Shown here one piece after another: positions 679 through 34,906 of a stretch of DNA of 39,587 bases (the first letter of the stretch is position 1; every line of letters begins with the position of its first letter). The notes below the pieces were generated by a model. The model worked only from the letters and a program-made list of their open reading frames with translations, did not search any database and had not been told where the DNA came from. The position numbers were made by a program, and so were the translations under genes. Source of the DNA: a virus; the IMG/VR virus record IMGVR_UViG_3300006790_000007, positions 1 through 39,587 of that record; one strand, given 5' to 3'.

Positions 679-1088
679 TACCTTCAAGATTAATAGCTGA
701 ATACCAGCAAAAGAAAAACGCAATGATAGAAGATATTACTAATAACTTTGATATTTTCTATTCAAAAAATCATGATGATCTAGAAAAGATTATAGGATAT
801 ATCAATTATACTGATAGCCTTATAAGATTCTTAATTGATAAGGCAGAAACTAATTATACAAGTGAATTAAATGTATCTGAAAAACATCGCTTTATAGAGC
901 GTGTAATAGGTTACCATGCATCAGTAGCACCATTCAATCAAGAAAAAGCAAGAGAATGGGTAAAAACAGCCTTAAATATGATAATTAGTGACGGGTGGCA
1001 ATATAAGCCTCCAATGTTTATAAAAGGAGATAGAAAAATAATGAATAGTTTAACACAAATGAAAAAAGTATGTCAAGTAAGTATTTAG
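675..1088 (+). CDS. Hypothetical protein of the replication operon
   Basis: A 137-residue, mostly helical and soluble protein that I do not recognise. No signal peptide, membrane segment or metal motif is visible. It starts at an ATGA overlap with the initiator-like gene, and its end overlaps the helicase-methyltransferase gene by 19 bp, so the three are translationally coupled. Its place right after the initiator and before two helicases fits a helicase loader or a replication accessory factor (the position of lambda P or DnaI-like proteins), but nothing in the sequence proves that; no Walker A motif is present. Confidence 0.75.
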   Translation: MIPSRLIAEYQQKKNAMIEDITNNFDIFYSKNHDDLEKIIGYINYTDSLIRFLIDKAETNYTSELNVSEKHRFIERVIGYHASVAPFNQEKAREWVKTALNMIISDGWQYKPPMFIKGDRKIMNSLTQMKKVCQVSI

Positions 1089-3283
1089 AATTTCTGGAGA
1101 CAAAAAGAAAGAGCCATTTAGATTCTGGATTTGAAATTAATGAAGATCAATTATCAGATCATTTATTTGATTTTCAAAAGTACGCTGTTAAATGGGCGTT
1201 AAAAAAAGGTAGAGCAGCTTTATTTGAAGATTGCGGATTAGGTAAAACAGCTCAAATGCTAGAGTGGGCATATCAAGTAATGAATTATACTAACAAACCT
1301 GTTTTAATATTAGCACCTTTAGCGGTAGTAGGGCAAACAGAACAGGAAGCTATTAAGTTTGGTAATCTTTATGTTTCAAAATATACAGATGAAAATGAAG
1401 TATCTACTAAGTGTATAAAAATAACAAACTATGAGCAGATAGATAATATTGATATAAGTTTGTTTAGTGGGGTTGTATTAGATGAAAGCTCTATTCTTAA
1501 AGGAAAGGATAGTAAAACAAAAAATAAGCTGCTAGAATACTTTAAAAACACTCCATACAAGTTATGCTGTACTGCTACTCCATCACCTAATGACCATATG
1601 GAACTTGGAAACCATAGCGAATTTCTAGGATCAATGAGTTATTTAGAAATGTTGGCAATGTATTTTGTTCATGATGGCGGAGAAACTTCTAAATGGAGAC
1701 TTAGAAAACACGCTGAAAAGGACTTCTGGCAGTTTGTTTCTTCATGGGGTTTAGCAATGGATAATCCAGCTACATTAGGATTTACAGAAAAAAGCTATGA
1801 ATTACCTAATATAAATTATGTTGAGCATTTTGTAGATGTAGAAAGTGATGGATTAGATTTATTTGGTGAGGCTATTGTATCGGCTACTGAATTACATAGA
1901 GATTTAAAGAAGTCTCAAAAAGATAGATTACAAAAGGCTTTAGATATTTATAATGAGAAACCAGATGAACAGTGGATATTTTGGGTTTTAGGAAATGAAG
2001 AAGCTAAAGAGTTAGAAAAGATAATACCTAATTCTGTGAATGTTCATGGTGGATTAAAGCCACAACAAAAAGCAGATTATTTATTAGGGTTTGCAAATGG
2101 AGAAGTAAAAAACTTAATTACTAAAACTTCTATAGCATCATTTGGTATGAATTATCAAAATGCTTGTAATATGTGTTTTCCTTCTTATGATTTTAAGTTT
2201 GAAGCTTTTTATCAAGCAGTAAGGAGAGAGTATAGATTTGGTCAAAATAGAGATGTTAATGTACATTTAATCATACCTAAATCACAAGTAAATGTTAGGA
2301 AATCAATTTTAGAAAAAGAAGCTAAACATCATGAGATGATGCATAAAATGGCTTTACATAGTGCTGAGTTTAATCAATTTAAAAAAGAAAATATGAAACA
2401 CGAAGATATTAAAAATGATAATTACTGGTTAATGAATGGAGATTGCGTTCAAAGATCAAAAGAAATACCTACAGATTCAGTTGATTTATGTGTGTTTAGT
2501 CCTCCATTTGCTGAGCTTTATGTTTACTCAGATAAAGAAGAGGATATGGGTAATGTATCTAATTATGAACAGTTTAAAACTCATTTTAGTTATCTAGTTC
2601 CAGAACTTAAAAGAACTATAAAACAGGGTAGGATATGTGCTGTTCATTGTATGGACTTACCTATTCAAAAAGGTAAAGAAGGTTTTATAGGTCTTAGAGA
2701 TTTTAGTGGAATGATTAGAGAGATGTTTGAATCAGAAGGCTTTATATATCATGCTCGTACTACTGTTTGGAAGAATCCAGTAACAGAAATGCAAAGGACT
2801 AAAGCATTAGGTTTATTACACAAGACTATTAAAAAAGATAGTGTAATGAGTAGAGTAGGTATACCTGATTATATTCTTTTCTTTAGGAATGGTGATGGTA
2901 ATGAAACACCAATAACACACCAAGATACAGATCCAAGTAAACCAGATTATTTACCTGTTGATTTATGGCAAAAATATGCTTCTCCAGTTTGGATGGATGT
3001 TGATTATTCTAGAACTTTACAATACACAACTGCTAGAGATTCTAATGATGAAAAGCATATATGCCCTCTACAATTAGATACTATTGAAAGAATACTTCAT
3101 CTTTATTCTAATGAAGGAGAAACAGTATTAAGTCCTTTTGGTGGTATTGGTTCAGAGGGTTACCAGTCTTTAAAAATGAATCGTAAGAGCATTAGTATTG
3201 AATTAAAAGAGTCATACTTTGCTATTAATAAAAAGAATCATTCTAATGCAATTAAAGAAAACGCTGTATTAACATTGTTTTAA
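1070..3283 (+). CDS. SNF2-type helicase fused to a DNA methyltransferase
   Basis: A 737-residue two-part protein. Residues 30-400 are a superfamily-2 SNF2-like helicase: Walker A EDCGLGKT at 53-60, a DEAH-box equivalent VLDES at 136-140, TATPSPND near 168-175 (motif III), and the helicase C-terminal half ending in RREYRFGQ at 385-392 (motif VI). Residues 450-737 are an N4-cytosine/N6-adenine type methyltransferase with motifs in the beta-class order: catalytic SPPF at 477-480 first, then the SAM-binding PFGGIGSEGY near 689-698. The fusion is seen in phages and recalls the helicase-methylase protein DarB of phage P1, which protects DNA from restriction. Here it lies in the replication operon with a 19-bp overlap upstream and a 1-bp overlap downstream. 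It may methylate phage DNA or remodel replication intermediates; the target sequence is unknown. Confidence 0.85.
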   Translation: MSSKYLEFLETKRKSHLDSGFEINEDQLSDHLFDFQKYAVKWALKKGRAALFEDCGLGKTAQMLEWAYQVMNYTNKPVLILAPLAVVGQTEQEAIKFGNLYVSKYTDENEVSTKCIKITNYEQIDNIDISLFSGVVLDESSILKGKDSKTKNKLLEYFKNTPYKLCCTATPSPNDHMELGNHSEFLGSMSYLEMLAMYFVHDGGETSKWRLRKHAEKDFWQFVSSWGLAMDNPATLGFTEKSYELPNINYVEHFVDVESDGLDLFGEAIVSATELHRDLKKSQKDRLQKALDIYNEKPDEQWIFWVLGNEEAKELEKIIPNSVNVHGGLKPQQKADYLLGFANGEVKNLITKTSIASFGMNYQNACNMCFPSYDFKFEAFYQAVRREYRFGQNRDVNVHLIIPKSQVNVRKSILEKEAKHHEMMHKMALHSAEFNQFKKENMKHEDIKNDNYWLMNGDCVQRSKEIPTDSVDLCVFSPPFAELYVYSDKEEDMGNVSNYEQFKTHFSYLVPELKRTIKQGRICAVHCMDLPIQKGKEGFIGLRDFSGMIREMFESEGFIYHARTTVWKNPVTEMQRTKALGLLHKTIKKDSVMSRVGIPDYILFFRNGDGNETPITHQDTDPSKPDYLPVDLWQKYASPVWMDVDYSRTLQYTTARDSNDEKHICPLQLDTIERILHLYSNEGETVLSPFGGIGSEGYQSLKMNRKSISIELKESYFAINKKNHSNAIKENAVLTLF

Positions 3284-4215: not shown

Positions 4216-4245
4216 TTTAGAACTATTATAAATAGTAATTAAATA

Positions 4246-4275
4246 TTGTTACTTATAAATAAAGTAGTAGATTTA
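4246..4275 (+). promoter_or_regulatory. Bacteroidota-type promoter
   Basis: TTG at 4246-4248, 19 bp, then TAGATTTA at 4268-4275, one base from the TAnnTTTG consensus. The upstream 45 bp (4216-4260) match 9809-9853 at 37 of 45 positions, which is the promoter block of another operon. Downstream, ATTTACATTATAACAA is repeated after the promoter at 34931. Transcription should start near 4281 and run through the predicted RNA and small genes. Confidence 0.65.
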
Positions 4276-4281
4276 CATTAT

Positions 4282-4408
4282 AACAATTTAAGGGGGTCAT
4301 TCAAATTTATAAACAAAATGAATGTTTTAAGTCTAAATAATACGAGGTATGCCTCCACCTCACTAAAAAGCATATAATTAAAGGGGGTTTCATGCTTCCC
4401 CCGTTTTT
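4282..4408 (+). ncRNA. Predicted structured small RNA or leader
   Basis: About 125 bases between the helicase operon and the small genes hold no convincing ORF but several paired segments: CATTCA 4298-4303 with TGAATG 4319-4324; GAGGT 4344-4348 with ACCTC 4357-4361; and at the 3' end AAGCAT/ATGCTT interleaved with GGGGG/CCCCC, then a T-run. A promoter sits just upstream and a terminator-like end lies at 4408, 12 bases before the next ATG. It could be a free small RNA, or an attenuator leader for the MazG operon. No known RNA family was recognised. Confidence 0.5.
4368..4408 (+). terminator. Terminator-like G5/C5 hairpin, alternative pseudoknot
   Basis: GGGGG (4383-4387) pairs with CCCCC (4398-4402), followed by G and five T. 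AAGCAT (4368-4373) pairs with ATGCTT (4392-4397), which lies inside the G5/C5 loop, so both stems together form an H-type pseudoknot. The two forms could be alternatives (terminated or read through). Regulation is inference. Confidence 0.55.
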
Positions 4409-4420
4409 AACCTTAAGAAT

Positions 4421-4603
4421 ATGAAGATTATAACAGAACAAGAATTAAAAGAGTATTTAGATTTACATAAAGTAAACTGTGATAATAAAACAGCTAATTA
4501 TGTTGATGATCGTTTTGATGCTGTGTTGAATGCAGTTAATCATTTAGTAGAGGTTAAGATTTTTGATTATGTAACTACTGTTAGTGGTTGTAGTAAAAAA
4601 TAA
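4421..4603 (+). CDS. Small hypothetical protein
   Basis: A 60-residue acidic protein, unrecognised. It begins at the first ATG after the predicted hairpin (12 bases after the T-run), so its expression would depend on read-through. It lies 6 bp before the MazG-like gene. No membrane segment; two Cys only (residues 20 and 57). Codon use looks like that of its neighbours. Confidence 0.65.
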   Translation: MKIITEQELKEYLDLHKVNCDNKTANYVDDRFDAVLNAVNHLVEVKIFDYVTTVSGCSKK

Positions 4604-4609
4604 AATAAC

Positions 4610-4927
4610 ATGAATAAGAAAGTTTTTAGATTAATTAGAGAATGGGCTTATAAACGAGGTATTTATACTCATTCAGATTTGAAGAGTCAAACATTGAAAC
4701 TGCAAGAAGAAGTAGGGGAGTTATCTAAAGCTATATTAGAAAATAATAAACCTGATATAATAGATGCTATTGGTGATTGTGTTGTAGTATTAACTAATAT
4801 AGCTGAGACTTTAAATAATCAAACCAAAGAAACTATTAACATAGAAAGCTGTATTGAGTTAGCTTATGAAGTTATTAGTAAGCGTACTGGTAAAATGGAA
4901 AACGGAACATTTATAAAAGATGAATAA
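4610..4927 (+). CDS. MazG-like nucleotide pyrophosphohydrolase
   Basis: A 105-residue all-alpha NTP-PPase of the MazG superfamily. The metal-binding signature is visible: EEVGE with Glu33, Glu34 and Glu37, then Asp52 and Asp56 in DAIGD about 15 residues later. Family members hydrolyse (d)NTPs to NMPs and pyrophosphate; phage versions are thought to adjust nucleotide pools or lower the alarmone level of the host. The length is right for a single-domain phage MazG. It overlaps the next gene by 8 bp, so the two are probably co-translated. Confidence 0.8.
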   Translation: MNKKVFRLIREWAYKRGIYTHSDLKSQTLKLQEEVGELSKAILENNKPDIIDAIGDCVVVLTNIAETLNNQTKETINIESCIELAYEVISKRTGKMENGTFIKDE

Positions 4928-5222: not shown

Positions 5223-5284
5223 CGATTAGTACATGCTATCGTGTGAAGCGGTAGCGAAACATGGAGTATGTGCCGTGTTATATG
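5218..5284 (+). repeat. attC-like palindrome, site A
   Basis: AATAAC (5218-5223) and GTTATA (5277-5282) form the outer inverted core. Inside, GTACAT (5229-5234) pairs with ATGTGC (5268-5273), one G-U, and GCTATCG (5235-5241) pairs with CGGTAGC (5249-5255), one G-U, over a 7-base loop. An inverted outer core, a long imperfect stem with unpaired bases, and a position right at a stop codon are features of integron attC sites. The core differs from the classical RYYYAAC/GTTRRRY. It resembles the sites at 27734-29673. Confidence 0.55.
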
Positions 5285-5305
5285 CTTTTTAAAACTTGAT
5301 AAATT

Positions 5306-5488
5306 ATGAGTGTAGTAAGAAATAGAAAATTAAAGAAAGTAGGTATTACAAGCAAAAGCAAGAAACGAGAAGCTCGTAAATACATAAAGACATTTGTAAA
5401 ATGCAACCGAGGATATGCGTACAACAATATTGCTTGTAACATGGGGTTATTACCTGAGTTTTGGCAGTATGGTGAGGTGATTCAATAA
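5306..5488 (+). CDS. Small basic protein, possible gene cassette
   Basis: A 60-residue protein with a very basic N-terminal half (many Lys/Arg in residues 5-35) and an aromatic C-terminal half, NMGLLPEFWQYGEV. It may bind nucleic acid, but no fold is recognised. It is bounded by attC-like palindromes on both sides (5218-5284 and 5494-5562), so gene plus site may form a mobile cassette of about 280 bp. It has the same direction as the phage genes around it. Confidence 0.65.
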   Translation: MSVVRNRKLKKVGITSKSKKREARKYIKTFVKCNRGYAYNNIACNMGLLPEFWQYGEVIQ

Positions 5489-5596: not shown

Positions 5597-5630
5597 AGAA
5601 TAGTTTGTTATTTTTGTAGCAAACTATTCT
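5597..5630 (+). promoter_or_regulatory. Promoter -7 box inside an 11-bp inverted repeat
   Basis: AGAATAGTTTG (5597-5607) and CAAACTATTCT (5620-5630) are a perfect inverted repeat. The 12-base gap holds TATTTTTG (5609-5616), a full match to the TAnnTTTG box, though no TTG sits at the standard distance upstream. The palindrome could be an operator over the tail-fibre promoter or a hairpin in the leader just before the ATG at 5636. Confidence 0.5.
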
Positions 5631-7707: not shown

Positions 7708-9702
7708 ATGGCTAGTTTTGTAATAACAACTAATACGGCTTCTTTTGAAGTACAGCAAGGCACTTACACAAGGGAGTACCCTTTTAATGAGCTTATAGTT
7801 CAGGTTAATAGTGAAGATGTAAATTCTTTAGAGCTTTATAATAAAAGAACTCAAAGAGTAGATTATAGCATTTACACAGACACAGATACTATTAATGTAA
7901 ATGGGACTACTTCTTGGGCTAATGCCGAGGAGTTAAAAACAGCTTTAGAGACTGCTATATTTTCATTAGAAGGCGGGGGCGGTACTCCTGTTGATCCTGT
8001 TATTGAAACTCCTTTCGAAGAGTTAGAGCATACTAGAGTAGGAAATGTTTTAAATGCTATACTTGATTACAACGCGCCTAAACCAGATTTATCTATTACT
8101 AAAAATGATTATGAAGCTTTAGAAGAGTATGAAAACAGAAGGTATTTAGTAGATGATGGTTCTATATTCTTAGGGCCTAAAAAACTACAGGACTATAATT
8201 ATGTATTTGGTGGTTCTGATTTACTGGTTACAACTACTGGTAATGATACTACTGGAGATGGTTCTGAGGGTAACCCGTTTGCAACATGGGAGCATGCCAT
8301 TACTACTGTTGGTGCTGCTGGTGGTATTACTATCTGGGTTGAAGGAGGTTCTTATAATATGGATTCAGGTGGTGGTTTTGCTTCCATTACAGGTAACTTT
8401 ACAGATGATGTTATTATCAAGGCAAAGCCAAACGAAGTAGTAACTCTTACTCATACTTTAGGTACTGATGCTGTAGTTATAAATGGAACTAGTAAAAATA
8501 TAGTTTTCGAGGGATTAGTGTTTACTGGTTTAGCTGGAGATAATTCTGTATTTAAAGCTTCTGGAGCTGATTTTGTTTCAGAAATAGAATCAAGGGATTG
8601 TACATTTAATATGGTAGACTCTCCTTATATATTTGATTTTAGACATACAGGATTATGTACACTTCAAAAGGTTAAGAGGTGCACTATAAATGCCGGTTCT
8701 GGTAATGGAACGTGTTTCTTTGATGCTTCTTCTAATGATTCTTATATAGGTAACTACTATGAAAGTACTTCAACTACTGCTAGTGCTTTTAGAGTTGACT
8801 TAGGTTTGAATGATTACTACATTAGTAACAACACTATTGTAGCCGAAAACCAGACTACAAGTTTATCGCATCAGATATTCCAATTCTCTAGCAGAATGTT
8901 AAGCACAGGAGGCACTATTAATTTAAATAGAAACTACGCTAGAAAAGTTGGAGGAAGAATATTCTTTACTGATGGTGCTGCTGGAGTTGGTAGGGTACAA
9001 TTATTTATTAAAGGTAATGATTTTAAATCTGCAGGAGATAGAATTATTGCAACTACTATTAGTGTTGATGGTGGTGAGATTATGTATAATAAGCTGTGTT
9101 GTGCTAATGTACCTTTAGCTACTCCAGACGAAGCAACGCCTTCTGTAGGTCAAGAAACGGAAAACCTAGAGATAGCTTATAATTATGTGACAAGCGAAGA
9201 CCATACTGTATTATTTGGTGAGAATGGATTAAACAATTATTTACACGATAATGTACTAGATTCTACTAATGGTTTATTTGGAGCAGTTATTAAAGGCGGT
9301 GGTCATCAGATAGCTAATAATGTATTGTATGGAGGTAGTAGAAACTGTATATATTTTAAAAACGCGGAGAACTGTTTAGAGTGGGGTGATTTATTACTAC
9401 AAAGAGTAGCAGGAGGACAATGTTTAGAATATACTGAGGGTTCTGCTTTTGCTTCTCGTAATAATAATACTCAGTATTGCTTCATGGAATCAACTAAAGG
9501 AGCTATAATAAAAGCTGGTGAAGTTCTAACGCCTTTAGGTACTGGTAATGTAGTTGACAATAATAGATACTTTGTAGCAGACCAAGGAACATGGGGAATC
9601 TTATTTAATCCTGTTAGCTCTCTAGCAGATATGCAGGCTGAATGGTTAGCTAATTATCCATCAAATCCAAATAATGATGAAAACAGTATTGATTTATCAT
9701 AA
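7708..9702 (+). CDS. Tailspike-like parallel beta-helix protein
   Basis: 664 residues. Residues 1-86 are the N-module shared with the protein at 5636. About 90-165 is a linker. From GSDLLVTTTGNDTTGDGS (about 172) a DUF1565-like start leads into a right-handed parallel beta-helix, with repeated short strands and Asn-rich turns (NNTIV, NLNRNYA, IAYNYV, NYLHDNVLD, IANNVLYGG). Such folds occur in phage tailspikes and pectate lyases and often degrade surface polysaccharide. No catalytic triad is obvious, so enzymatic activity is unproven. The last bases of the gene contain a promoter reading downstream. Confidence 0.75.
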   Translation: MASFVITTNTASFEVQQGTYTREYPFNELIVQVNSEDVNSLELYNKRTQRVDYSIYTDTDTINVNGTTSWANAEELKTALETAIFSLEGGGGTPVDPVIETPFEELEHTRVGNVLNAILDYNAPKPDLSITKNDYEALEEYENRRYLVDDGSIFLGPKKLQDYNYVFGGSDLLVTTTGNDTTGDGSEGNPFATWEHAITTVGAAGGITIWVEGGSYNMDSGGGFASITGNFTDDVIIKAKPNEVVTLTHTLGTDAVVINGTSKNIVFEGLVFTGLAGDNSVFKASGADFVSEIESRDCTFNMVDSPYIFDFRHTGLCTLQKVKRCTINAGSGNGTCFFDASSNDSYIGNYYESTSTTASAFRVDLGLNDYYISNNTIVAENQTTSLSHQIFQFSSRMLSTGGTINLNRNYARKVGGRIFFTDGAAGVGRVQLFIKGNDFKSAGDRIIATTISVDGGEIMYNKLCCANVPLATPDEATPSVGQETENLEIAYNYVTSEDHTVLFGENGLNNYLHDNVLDSTNGLFGAVIKGGGHQIANNVLYGGSRNCIYFKNAENCLEWGDLLLQRVAGGQCLEYTEGSAFASRNNNTQYCFMESTKGAIIKAGEVLTPLGTGNVVDNNRYFVADQGTWGILFNPVSSLADMQAEWLANYPSNPNNDENSIDLS

Positions 9703-9718
9703 TTAATTATTATATTTG
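9689..9718 (+). promoter_or_regulatory. Promoter at the end of the tailspike gene
   Basis: TTG (9689-9691), exactly 19 bp, TATATTTG (9711-9718): a full match to the Bacteroidota consensus. The TTG lies inside the last codons of the tailspike. Transcription would begin near 9724 and reach a hairpin terminator at 9781-9808 after about 85 bases, with no ORF between. Confidence 0.75.
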
Positions 9719-9723
9719 ACTTT

Positions 9724-9808
9724 CTACTAGGGGGTTTTACTTCATATTTTCCTCCTTGCAACATGCTAAAGGTTACAAAGCCCTCACTCAAGTAGTGGGG
9801 GTTTCTTG
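9724..9808 (+). ncRNA. Predicted small RNA of about 85 nt
   Basis: A consensus promoter (9689-9718) and a good intrinsic terminator (9781-9806) enclose about 60 bases with no start codon followed by a useful ORF. The body contains an AGGGGGTTTT segment near its 5' end and a CCTCCTTG segment at 9751-9758 that could pair with it in part. The terminator also serves the tailspike operon, so a simple read-out promoter is possible, but promoter plus terminator this close suggests a discrete small RNA. Confidence 0.45.
9781..9806 (+). terminator. Intrinsic terminator after the tail-fibre operon
   Basis: CCCTCACT (9781-9788), a 5-base loop and AGTGGGGG (9794-9801) form an 8-bp stem with one G-U pair, followed by TTTCTTGTTT. 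It ends the tail-fibre operon and the predicted small RNA, just before the next promoter. Confidence 0.8.
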
Positions 9809-9838
9809 TTTAGAATCATTATTAATAGCAAGTAAATG

Positions 9839-9868
9839 TTGTTATGTATAAATCTTTTATTATATTTG
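9839..9868 (+). promoter_or_regulatory. Promoter of the small-gene operon
   Basis: TTG (9839-9841), 19 bp, TATATTTG (9861-9868). The block 9809-9853 matches 4216-4260 at 37 of 45 bases, including an extended TTGTTAnnTATAAAT around the -33 box. The expected start, near 9874, leaves a leader of about 17 bases before the ATG at 9891. Confidence 0.8.
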
Positions 9869-10145: not shown

Positions 10146-10462
10146 TGAACCTACAAAAAACAATAGACTTACTAGAAGACTTAAAGAGTGGGAAGCTTCC
10201 GCATCCTTTTGTGGTGGAGGAGCATGTTGATGGGTTGAAGGAAGCTTTGAAAGTATTTGACACTATACTTAATGAATTAGATAAAGAAGATAATCTCAGG
10301 CTTAAGGAATCGCTAGATAAAAATATGCGTAATAGGTTTGGGGAATTAAATGTTGTTGAGTCTGAATGGTATCTTTTAGACAAAGAGGGCAATGTTGAGA
10401 AAATGGATGAAAACGGTGAGTTCATTCCTTACAAACCAAAAGACAACGAAAGACTAAAGTAG
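10145..10462 (+). CDS. Hypothetical protein
   Basis: 105 residues. The N-terminal 60 residues form a Leu-rich helix pattern with a possible coiled coil (residues 25-55); the C-terminal part is charged, with short beta-like stretches (EWYLLDKEGNVEKMDENGE). No family recognised. It is coupled to the upstream gene by a 1-base overlap and followed by the next ATG 2 bases after its stop. Confidence 0.7.
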   Translation: MNLQKTIDLLEDLKSGKLPHPFVVEEHVDGLKEALKVFDTILNELDKEDNLRLKESLDKNMRNRFGELNVVESEWYLLDKEGNVEKMDENGEFIPYKPKDNERLK

Positions 10463-11456: not shown

Positions 11457-11485
11457 CTTGTTTATAATAATTCTAAATAATTTTG

Positions 11486-29595: not shown

Positions 29596-29623
29596 AAGTT
29601 TTATTTATTAAGTCCGTACTGTT

Positions 29624-29673
29624 TACAACACGACCTAAACAGCATTAAAACTCAGTTTAGCCAGAGCGTTATA
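29624..29673 (-). repeat. attC/attI-like site H at the head of the array
   Basis: Plus coordinates: outer core TACAAC (29624-29629) with GTTATA (29668-29673), inner stem CTAAAC (29635-29640) with GTTTAG (29655-29660). It shares GTTGTAnACAGTACGGA in gene direction with site G. It stands between the minus-strand promoter and the first small gene, the place of attI in an integron. Confidence 0.5.
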
Positions 29674-29704
29674 TCGACTTGATTTTATTTATTTAGTTAC
29701 ATCA

Positions 29705-29734
29705 CAAACTTAACCAATTATTTATAAATAACAA
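29705..29734 (-). promoter_or_regulatory. Promoter of the minus-strand gene array
   Basis: On the minus strand: TTG (29734-29732), exactly 19 bp, TAAGTTTG (29712-29705), a full consensus match. The extended TATTGTTATTTATAAAT around the -33 box matches the promoter blocks at 4244 and 9837. Transcription should start near 29699, pass site H and read all six small genes to the terminator at 27480. Confidence 0.75.
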
Positions 29735-29758
29735 TAGTTAATCTTAATTATTTATTGT

Positions 29759-33442: not shown

Positions 33443-33807
33443 TAGAATTTAAAAACATAGCCTCTAAGTTTATACTGTTAGATGCTGAGATGGGAGTTTT
33501 ACAGCTTATGGGGTTGGCAGGTGAGTTAACAACAGGCAAAGACTTTGATTATGTTTATTATATAGGTTTAGTATATGCTTGTGTTAGATTAGGATGGTAT
33601 ATCTATTCCAGAATACATGAAAAAGCTAAAAACCAAATAGATAGAGAGAACGCAGAACTAGAGAAGCAGATAAAAGAGGAAAAGTTAAAAAGTTGGAAAA
33701 TATTAAACTCTCCAGACTTTAAATCTAGTTTAGGTAAAGAAAAGTTAGAAGAAATAAAAGGAATGTACAGTGAGGAAGATAAACAAGATAATAATTCATT
33801 GCGCTGA
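33427..33807 (+). CDS. Holin-like or lysis-region membrane protein
   Basis: 126 residues from ATG 33427 (GTG 33418 is possible). Residues 40-62 (DFDYVYYIGLVYACVRLGWYI) are a probable membrane helix; the C-terminal 60 residues are a charged coiled coil (IDRENAELEKQIKEEKLKSW). It comes before the amidase, with 38 bp overlap. It could be a holin partner or anti-holin. Confidence 0.5.
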   Translation: MQNVLIEFKNIASKFILLDAEMGVLQLMGLAGELTTGKDFDYVYYIGLVYACVRLGWYIYSRIHEKAKNQIDRENAELEKQIKEEKLKSWKILNSPDFKSSLGKEKLEEIKGMYSEEDKQDNNSLR

Positions 33808-34889: not shown

Positions 34890-34906
34890 TTTAGAATCAT
34901 TCTAAA
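34890..34906. repeat. 17-bp hyphenated palindrome upstream of the recombination operon
   Basis: TTTAGAAT, C, ATTCTAAA: 8-bp arms around one base, 25 bases before the -33 box at 34931. The left arm TTTAGAATCATT is also seen at 9809-9820 before another promoter. It may be the binding site of a dimeric regulator, for example the phage HTH protein. Confidence 0.45.

Follow-up and report, generated by a model that had tools for sequence, protein, structure and literature searches.

Which role is played by the leader that separates a promoter from the mazG gene of an uncharacterised Bacteroidota phage? This leader (4282–4408, ~127–130 nt) is located between the promoter and orf60 and ends in an intrinsic terminator 12 nt before orf60-mazG. 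The window, i.e., the entire stretch of DNA analysed, comprises 39,587 bases (32.6 % GC) of a virus record; its first ~120 bases are repeated at its end (from 39467 on), and it therefore probably represents a complete genome. The region contains the following elements:

4216–4232, + strand: 17-bp inverted-repeat box TTTAGAACTATTATAAA, putative regulator site 5' of the promoter at 4246
4246–4275, + strand: predicted promoter of Bacteroidota type, TTG-N19-TAGATTTA (consensus match; TAGATTTA at 4268–4275)
4292–4296, + strand: GGGGG (G1), alternative partner of CCCCC at 4398–4402 (antiterminator-like) or of CCTCC at 4352–4356
4298–4324, + strand: hairpin CATTCA/TGAATG of the MFE fold
4318–4377, + strand: 19-codon leader ORF, stop at 4375–4377, 5 nt 5' of the terminator stem
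4344–4361, + strand: hairpin GAGGT/ACCTC of the MFE fold with 8-nt loop ATGCCTCC
4352–4356, + strand: CCTCC, possible partner of G1 or G2
4368–4373, + strand: AAGCAT, complement of the terminator loop ATGCTT (4392–4397)
4383–4408, + strand: predicted intrinsic terminator GGGGG-TTTCATGCTT-CCCCC-G-TTTTT (G2, 4383–4387; C2, 4398–4402; T5, 4404–4408)
4421–4603, + strand: orf60 (ATG at 4421), first gene 3' of the leader, no family, no Pfam or PHROG match
4610–4927, + strand: mazG, MazG-like nucleotide pyrophosphohydrolase (PF03819, phrog_1992)

The interleaved order of AAGCAT, GGGGG, ATGCTT and CCCCC followed by T5, as described in the earlier note, is correct to the letter; the second GGGGG (G1) had been missed, and the CCTCC segment and the hairpins at 4298–4324 and 4344–4361 have to be taken into account as well. 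Codon usage is gene-like in both mazG and orf60 (0.62 and 0.67 bits per codon, respectively). According to profile searches, a fusion of SNF2-helicase and N6-N4 methylase as well as a DnaB-like helicase are encoded 5' of the leader. The fusion corresponds to a single ORF (1070–3283; SNF2/DEAD-type helicase fused to N6/N4 DNA methylase) with homologues of 63–78 % identity on at least 80 IMG/VR contigs, and is rare in Bacteroidota genomes. Further downstream, an AT-rich 15-bp hairpin (AGAATAGTTTG...CAAACTATTCT, 5597–5630) precedes the ORF at 5630.

A promoter-like sequence is likewise present as proposed, its TAGATTTA element agreeing with the Bacteroidota −7 consensus TAnnTTTG (PMC7366714) save for the last base (1 mismatch), and transcription is likely to start near 4282. 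Similar promoters are found at 9839 and 34931 in the window, and the 17-bp inverted-repeat box TTTAGAAnnATTATAAA (4216–4232, 9809–9825, 11461–11477 and 34890–34906) lies 5' of all three. The distance from box to −7 element amounts to 52 bp for both the 4246 and the 9839 promoter. The box is concentrated in the window, with 5 matches in 40 kb as compared with 5 in 1.87 Mb of DNA from elsewhere, most of it from phages; it is also present in Olleya phage Harreka_1 and may resemble Fur/PerR-type 7-1-7 sites. Since the box-bearing promoters at 9839 and 34931 and the copy in Harreka_1 run directly into genes without a leader, the combination of leader and terminator is special to the 4246 copy. Directly 5' of the promoter at 9839, a stand-alone unit of promoter, hairpin (GGGGG/CCTCC) and strong terminator (9689–9815) represents a candidate small RNA of ~90 nt. 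On the − strand, a long leader (29605–29735) is located behind a TTG...TAAGTTTG promoter and contains TAAACTG, CTGTTTA and TAAACAG in series, by which alternative hairpins are possible.

We read the region as the 5' leader of an orf60-mazG-orf100 transcript acting as a transcription attenuator, an interpretation to which we assign somewhat less than an even chance. RNA polymerase would initiate near 4282, transcribe the leader and reach the intrinsic terminator, where the fraction of read-through would be set by the partner of the single C2 segment. In the terminator state, C2 would be paired with G2, and in the antiterminator state with G1, the latter accompanied by an AAGCAT/ATGCTT hairpin burying the 5' arm of the terminator. 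Termination and switching between these states, as well as any factor shifting their balance, are presumed in this model. Promoter, leader, terminator and ATG follow each other in series directly before the operon, with no other promoter before orf60 and no space for a further one between terminator and orf60. Further support comes from the enrichment of terminator-like sites in this region (7 in 4 kb versus 1.1 in shuffles), from the single occurrence of CCCCC on the + strand, from the restriction of leader and terminator to the 4246 copy, and from the upstream complements of terminator loops in leaders of other Bacteroidota phages (see below). As this cassette lies directly 5' of orf60-mazG, control of read-through is possible, so that the anatomical part of the switch for read-through into the MazG operon envisaged by the earlier note is retained, whereas a metabolite switch is unsupported.

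Constrained folding yielded G1:C2 together with the AAGCAT/ATGCTT hairpin as the antiterminator-like MFE structure (−26.1 kcal/mol), with the CCTCC (4352–4356):G2 fold (−24.4 kcal/mol) and the terminator G2:C2 (−23.6 kcal/mol) competing within 2.5 kcal/mol; G1:CCTCC combined with the terminator amounts to −21.4 kcal/mol. In these calculations, which covered nested structures without kinetics, C2 pairs with G1 at a probability of 0.73 in the ensemble versus 0.04 with G2, and the prefix folds proceed from G1:CCTCC via AAGCAT/ATGCTT to G1:C2 as the chain lengthens. By prediction, the leader is thus built like an attenuator, the states of which exclude each other, and not like a simple H-type knot.

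Alternatively, an ordinary, partially efficient terminator may close the upstream replication operon together with weak transcripts from the 4246 promoter, in which case orf60-mazG would be expressed at a constant low level by read-through, and chance would account for the other pairings. We consider this unlikely, albeit of appreciable probability. It agrees with the folding statistics of the leader, the MFE of which (−24.5 versus −21.0 ± 3.4 for shuffles; z −1.04) was reached by 33 of the 200 shuffles and corresponds to a GC-adjusted z of −0.87 against genome windows; an unusual fold stability was rejected on these grounds, which also speaks against the attenuator. It likewise agrees with the marginal significance of the AAGCAT match: in dinucleotide shuffles, a match of at least 6 nt to the terminator loop arises with P 0.022 within the closest 30 nt and with P 0.095 over the whole leader. 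The 20 matches of GGGGG on the + strand of the window also point this way. However, CCCCC occurs only once on this strand, and it lies with two GGGGG inside 111 nt; moreover, the promoter sits within the gap, 5' of the terminator.

Conservation of the leader was not found, which agrees with an ordinary terminator and counts against the attenuator. Searches of IMG/VR, phage and plasmid collections by exact motif, gapped terminator patterns (IMG/VR), promoter-box pattern, blastn (phages, plasmids) or the proteins of neighbouring genes revealed no homologue. The eight IMG/VR matches to the motif and gapped terminator patterns turned out to be plain terminators, and blastn in phages and plasmids matched the promoter/box part alone, in Harreka_1. 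Rfam 15 likewise contained no meaningful match to the leader at gathering and permissive thresholds, including riboswitches and the c4 antisense RNA (RF01695); within this collection, the region indeed fits no RNA family, as previously stated.

A true pseudoknot, formed by AAGCAT with the loop of the terminator hairpin and serving either to strengthen the terminator or as a protein-binding site, appears improbable. The interleaved complementarity of AAGCAT and ATGCTT is real, and selection for upstream pairing with terminator loops is apparent in the phage leader class described below. In an H-type geometry, loop 3 has to cross stem 1, here of 6 bp; the loops derived from the sequence measure 9, 4 and 0 nt, and the classical H-type pseudoknot proposed earlier is therefore doubtful. 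Furthermore, AAGCAT is positioned outside any hairpin loop, a match is expected by chance at 2–10 %, and the nested G1 alternative is predicted to be more stable. The leader consists of ordinary parts, for which an attenuator is plausible and a pseudoknot unproven.

Similarly improbable, and rated slightly lower, is a discrete trans-acting phage small RNA of ~127 nt (4282–4408), from which orf60-mazG would be fed by read-through as in case of IsrK (see below). Promoter and terminator of its own would suit such an RNA, and the unit at 9689–9815 suggests that the phage makes RNAs of this kind; however, a gene begins just 12 nt past the terminator, and trans pairing with the 9719–9812 RNA was rejected as marginal (5 % of shuffles as good). 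Leader-peptide attenuation, i.e., a ribosome ending the 19-codon ORF would cover the terminator 5' arm (4383) and let polymerase pass, is very unlikely despite the position of this ORF, which the earlier note had overlooked in claiming 125 bases without ORF, and despite long 5' UTRs with sORFs reminiscent of attenuation in Bacteroides (PMC7366714), since its start codon stands in a poor context, equalled in score by 10 % of off-frame ATGs, and its codons are used in an apparently non-coding manner (−0.34 bits per codon) without any run of one codon or amino acid; it is probably not a gene.

When phage loci were retrieved by means of the methylase protein, many of their leaders turned out to have a common layout, in which a promoter is followed by a 5'-terminal hairpin of the transcript, a terminator and an ATG, with the hairpin loop being complementary to the terminator loop; we refer to this class as kissing-terminator leaders. 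Among 73 leaders of the TAnnTTTG-terminator-ATG type, the hairpin of which was picked without regard to the terminator, 21 have a hairpin loop complementary over at least 6 bases to the interior of the respective terminator (mean 2.7, max 10 in 10,000 permutations). An upstream complement of at least 6 bases to the interior of the respective terminator is present in 24 of 34 intergenic leaders (9.5 permuted, max 20; 5,000 permutations). Loop letters vary between phages while pairing is kept. Pairing of a 5' segment with the terminator 3' arm (G1:C2 type) was dismissed as a general rule, as it is not enriched in the phage leaders (12 versus 12.3), which counts against the attenuator. In its loose form, the hairpin test showed but weak enrichment outside promoter leaders, and a loose scan of the whole window yielded mostly matches within AT-rich genes; promoter and ATG were therefore required. 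The strict descriptor (TAnnTTTG and a 6-bp terminator stem) matches 51 times (37 distinct genes) in 1.87 Mb of DNA, most of it from phages, and once, doubtfully, in 520 kb from Bacteroidota genomes. The density in the phage set is not an unbiased rate, since this set was assembled for the most part by means of two proteins. The 73-leader test implies that roughly an eighth of the matches are due to chance. Representatives are:

L115, 723–831; L120, 873–986; L187, 8999–9111; L173, 1557–1690; L194, 33650–33738; and others: strict descriptor
Flavobacterium phage 11b: leader at 33680
Polaribacter phage P12002L: leader before a gene annotated as 'replication protein'
Cellulophaga phage phi10:1: leader at 10290, two genes before primase/helicase

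The leaders of this class stand mostly before replication genes. Profile searches downstream of them revealed replisome organiser, DnaD-like loader, replication initiation and primase-polymerase proteins, and further an AntA/KilAC antirepressor and an HNH endonuclease. ORFs of 726–750 aa follow in 10 of 37 cases and, judged by length and position, are at most loci likely to be the SNF2-methylase fusion by which they were fetched. By eye, many of the terminators contain a purine-rich internal loop (GAGUAG/CGAAA, GGAU/UGAA, GGA/AAA) between the outer stem and the kissing loop. The class has no matching Rfam family, and literature searches, from which most subscription journals were outside coverage, retrieved no description; it is apparently undescribed so far.

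The window leader shares with this class the layout of promoter (TTG at 4246, TAGATTTA at 4268), leader, terminator (4383–4408) at most about 45 nt before the ATG (4421), as well as a segment further upstream that is complementary to the terminator loop. However, this complement is located in the linker 9 nt before the terminator instead of in a 5'-terminal hairpin loop, and an internal loop, as seen in many of the other terminators, is missing here. No 5' hairpin loop complementary by at least 6 nt to the terminator interior is present; by inspection, no more than 3–4 nt of the hairpin loops are complementary to the terminator loop. The strict descriptor, the rules of which (TAnnTTTG, 6-bp stem) partly bar the window leader, gave no match there, and neither did the loose scan. 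Because this defining pairing is missing, which also counts against the attenuator, the leader is filed as being of the same general kind and not as a member. With respect to the genes 3' of it, orf60 has no family, MazG belongs to nucleotide metabolism, and the DnaB-like helicase is encoded upstream. That the leader represents a divergent form of a widespread, undescribed class, in which a 5' element pairs with the terminator and sets read-through into replication and nucleotide-metabolism operons, is a tentative proposal, more doubtful than probable.

Two other loci of the window are related to this class. At 5223–5292, ahead of the ORF at 5306, 8 base pairs, including two G-U pairs, are possible between GTACATGC and GTATGTGC, the latter being located in the loop of a hairpin further downstream (duplex −8.3 kcal/mol). 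No promoter is seen there and the MFE structure is a nested long hairpin; this locus is the better candidate of the window and, from its letters, possibly belongs to the kissing-leader class. The ORF at 154–678 is a relative of phrog_19415, with homologues placed behind kissing leaders in other phages (L193, L172, L016); no kissing leader was seen before the window copy.

Control of phage genes by leader RNAs has precedents. In phage P4, replication genes are held off by premature termination through RNA pairing (PMC4825925). The P4 CI RNA, with seqA-seqC and the c4 antisense RNA (RF01695), is alike in being a phage leader RNA with premature termination before replication genes; P4 uses a processed antisense RNA, whereas the window leader shows pairings in cis only and has no Rfam match. 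In case of the IsrK RNA of prophage Gifsy-1, read-through of the terminator of this RNA leads into a small ORF and the gene of an antirepressor (PMC4825925). The same order of promoter, short RNA and intrinsic terminator, with a small ORF and another gene to be reached by read-through, is found here, but both are unrelated in sequence, the window has MazG downstream instead of an antirepressor, and action in trans is putative in the present case. By our analysis, the parallels to P4 and IsrK are of function, not of sequence. As promoter-proximal phage RNAs possibly governing read-through of terminators, HK022 put and lambda nut are also comparable; there, polymerase is modified for all later terminators, whereas the window leader is predicted to pair with the local terminator itself.

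The class is of more interest than the finding on the window leader. Bacteroidota phages are abundant, and the timing of their genes is largely unknown. If true, a cis-acting RNA attenuator before replication genes, with a loop-loop contact of varying letters but constant pairing, would represent a P4-like layer of RNA control directly testable by reporters. The window leader, in which two G-runs would compete for a single C-run, would be suited as a simple test case.
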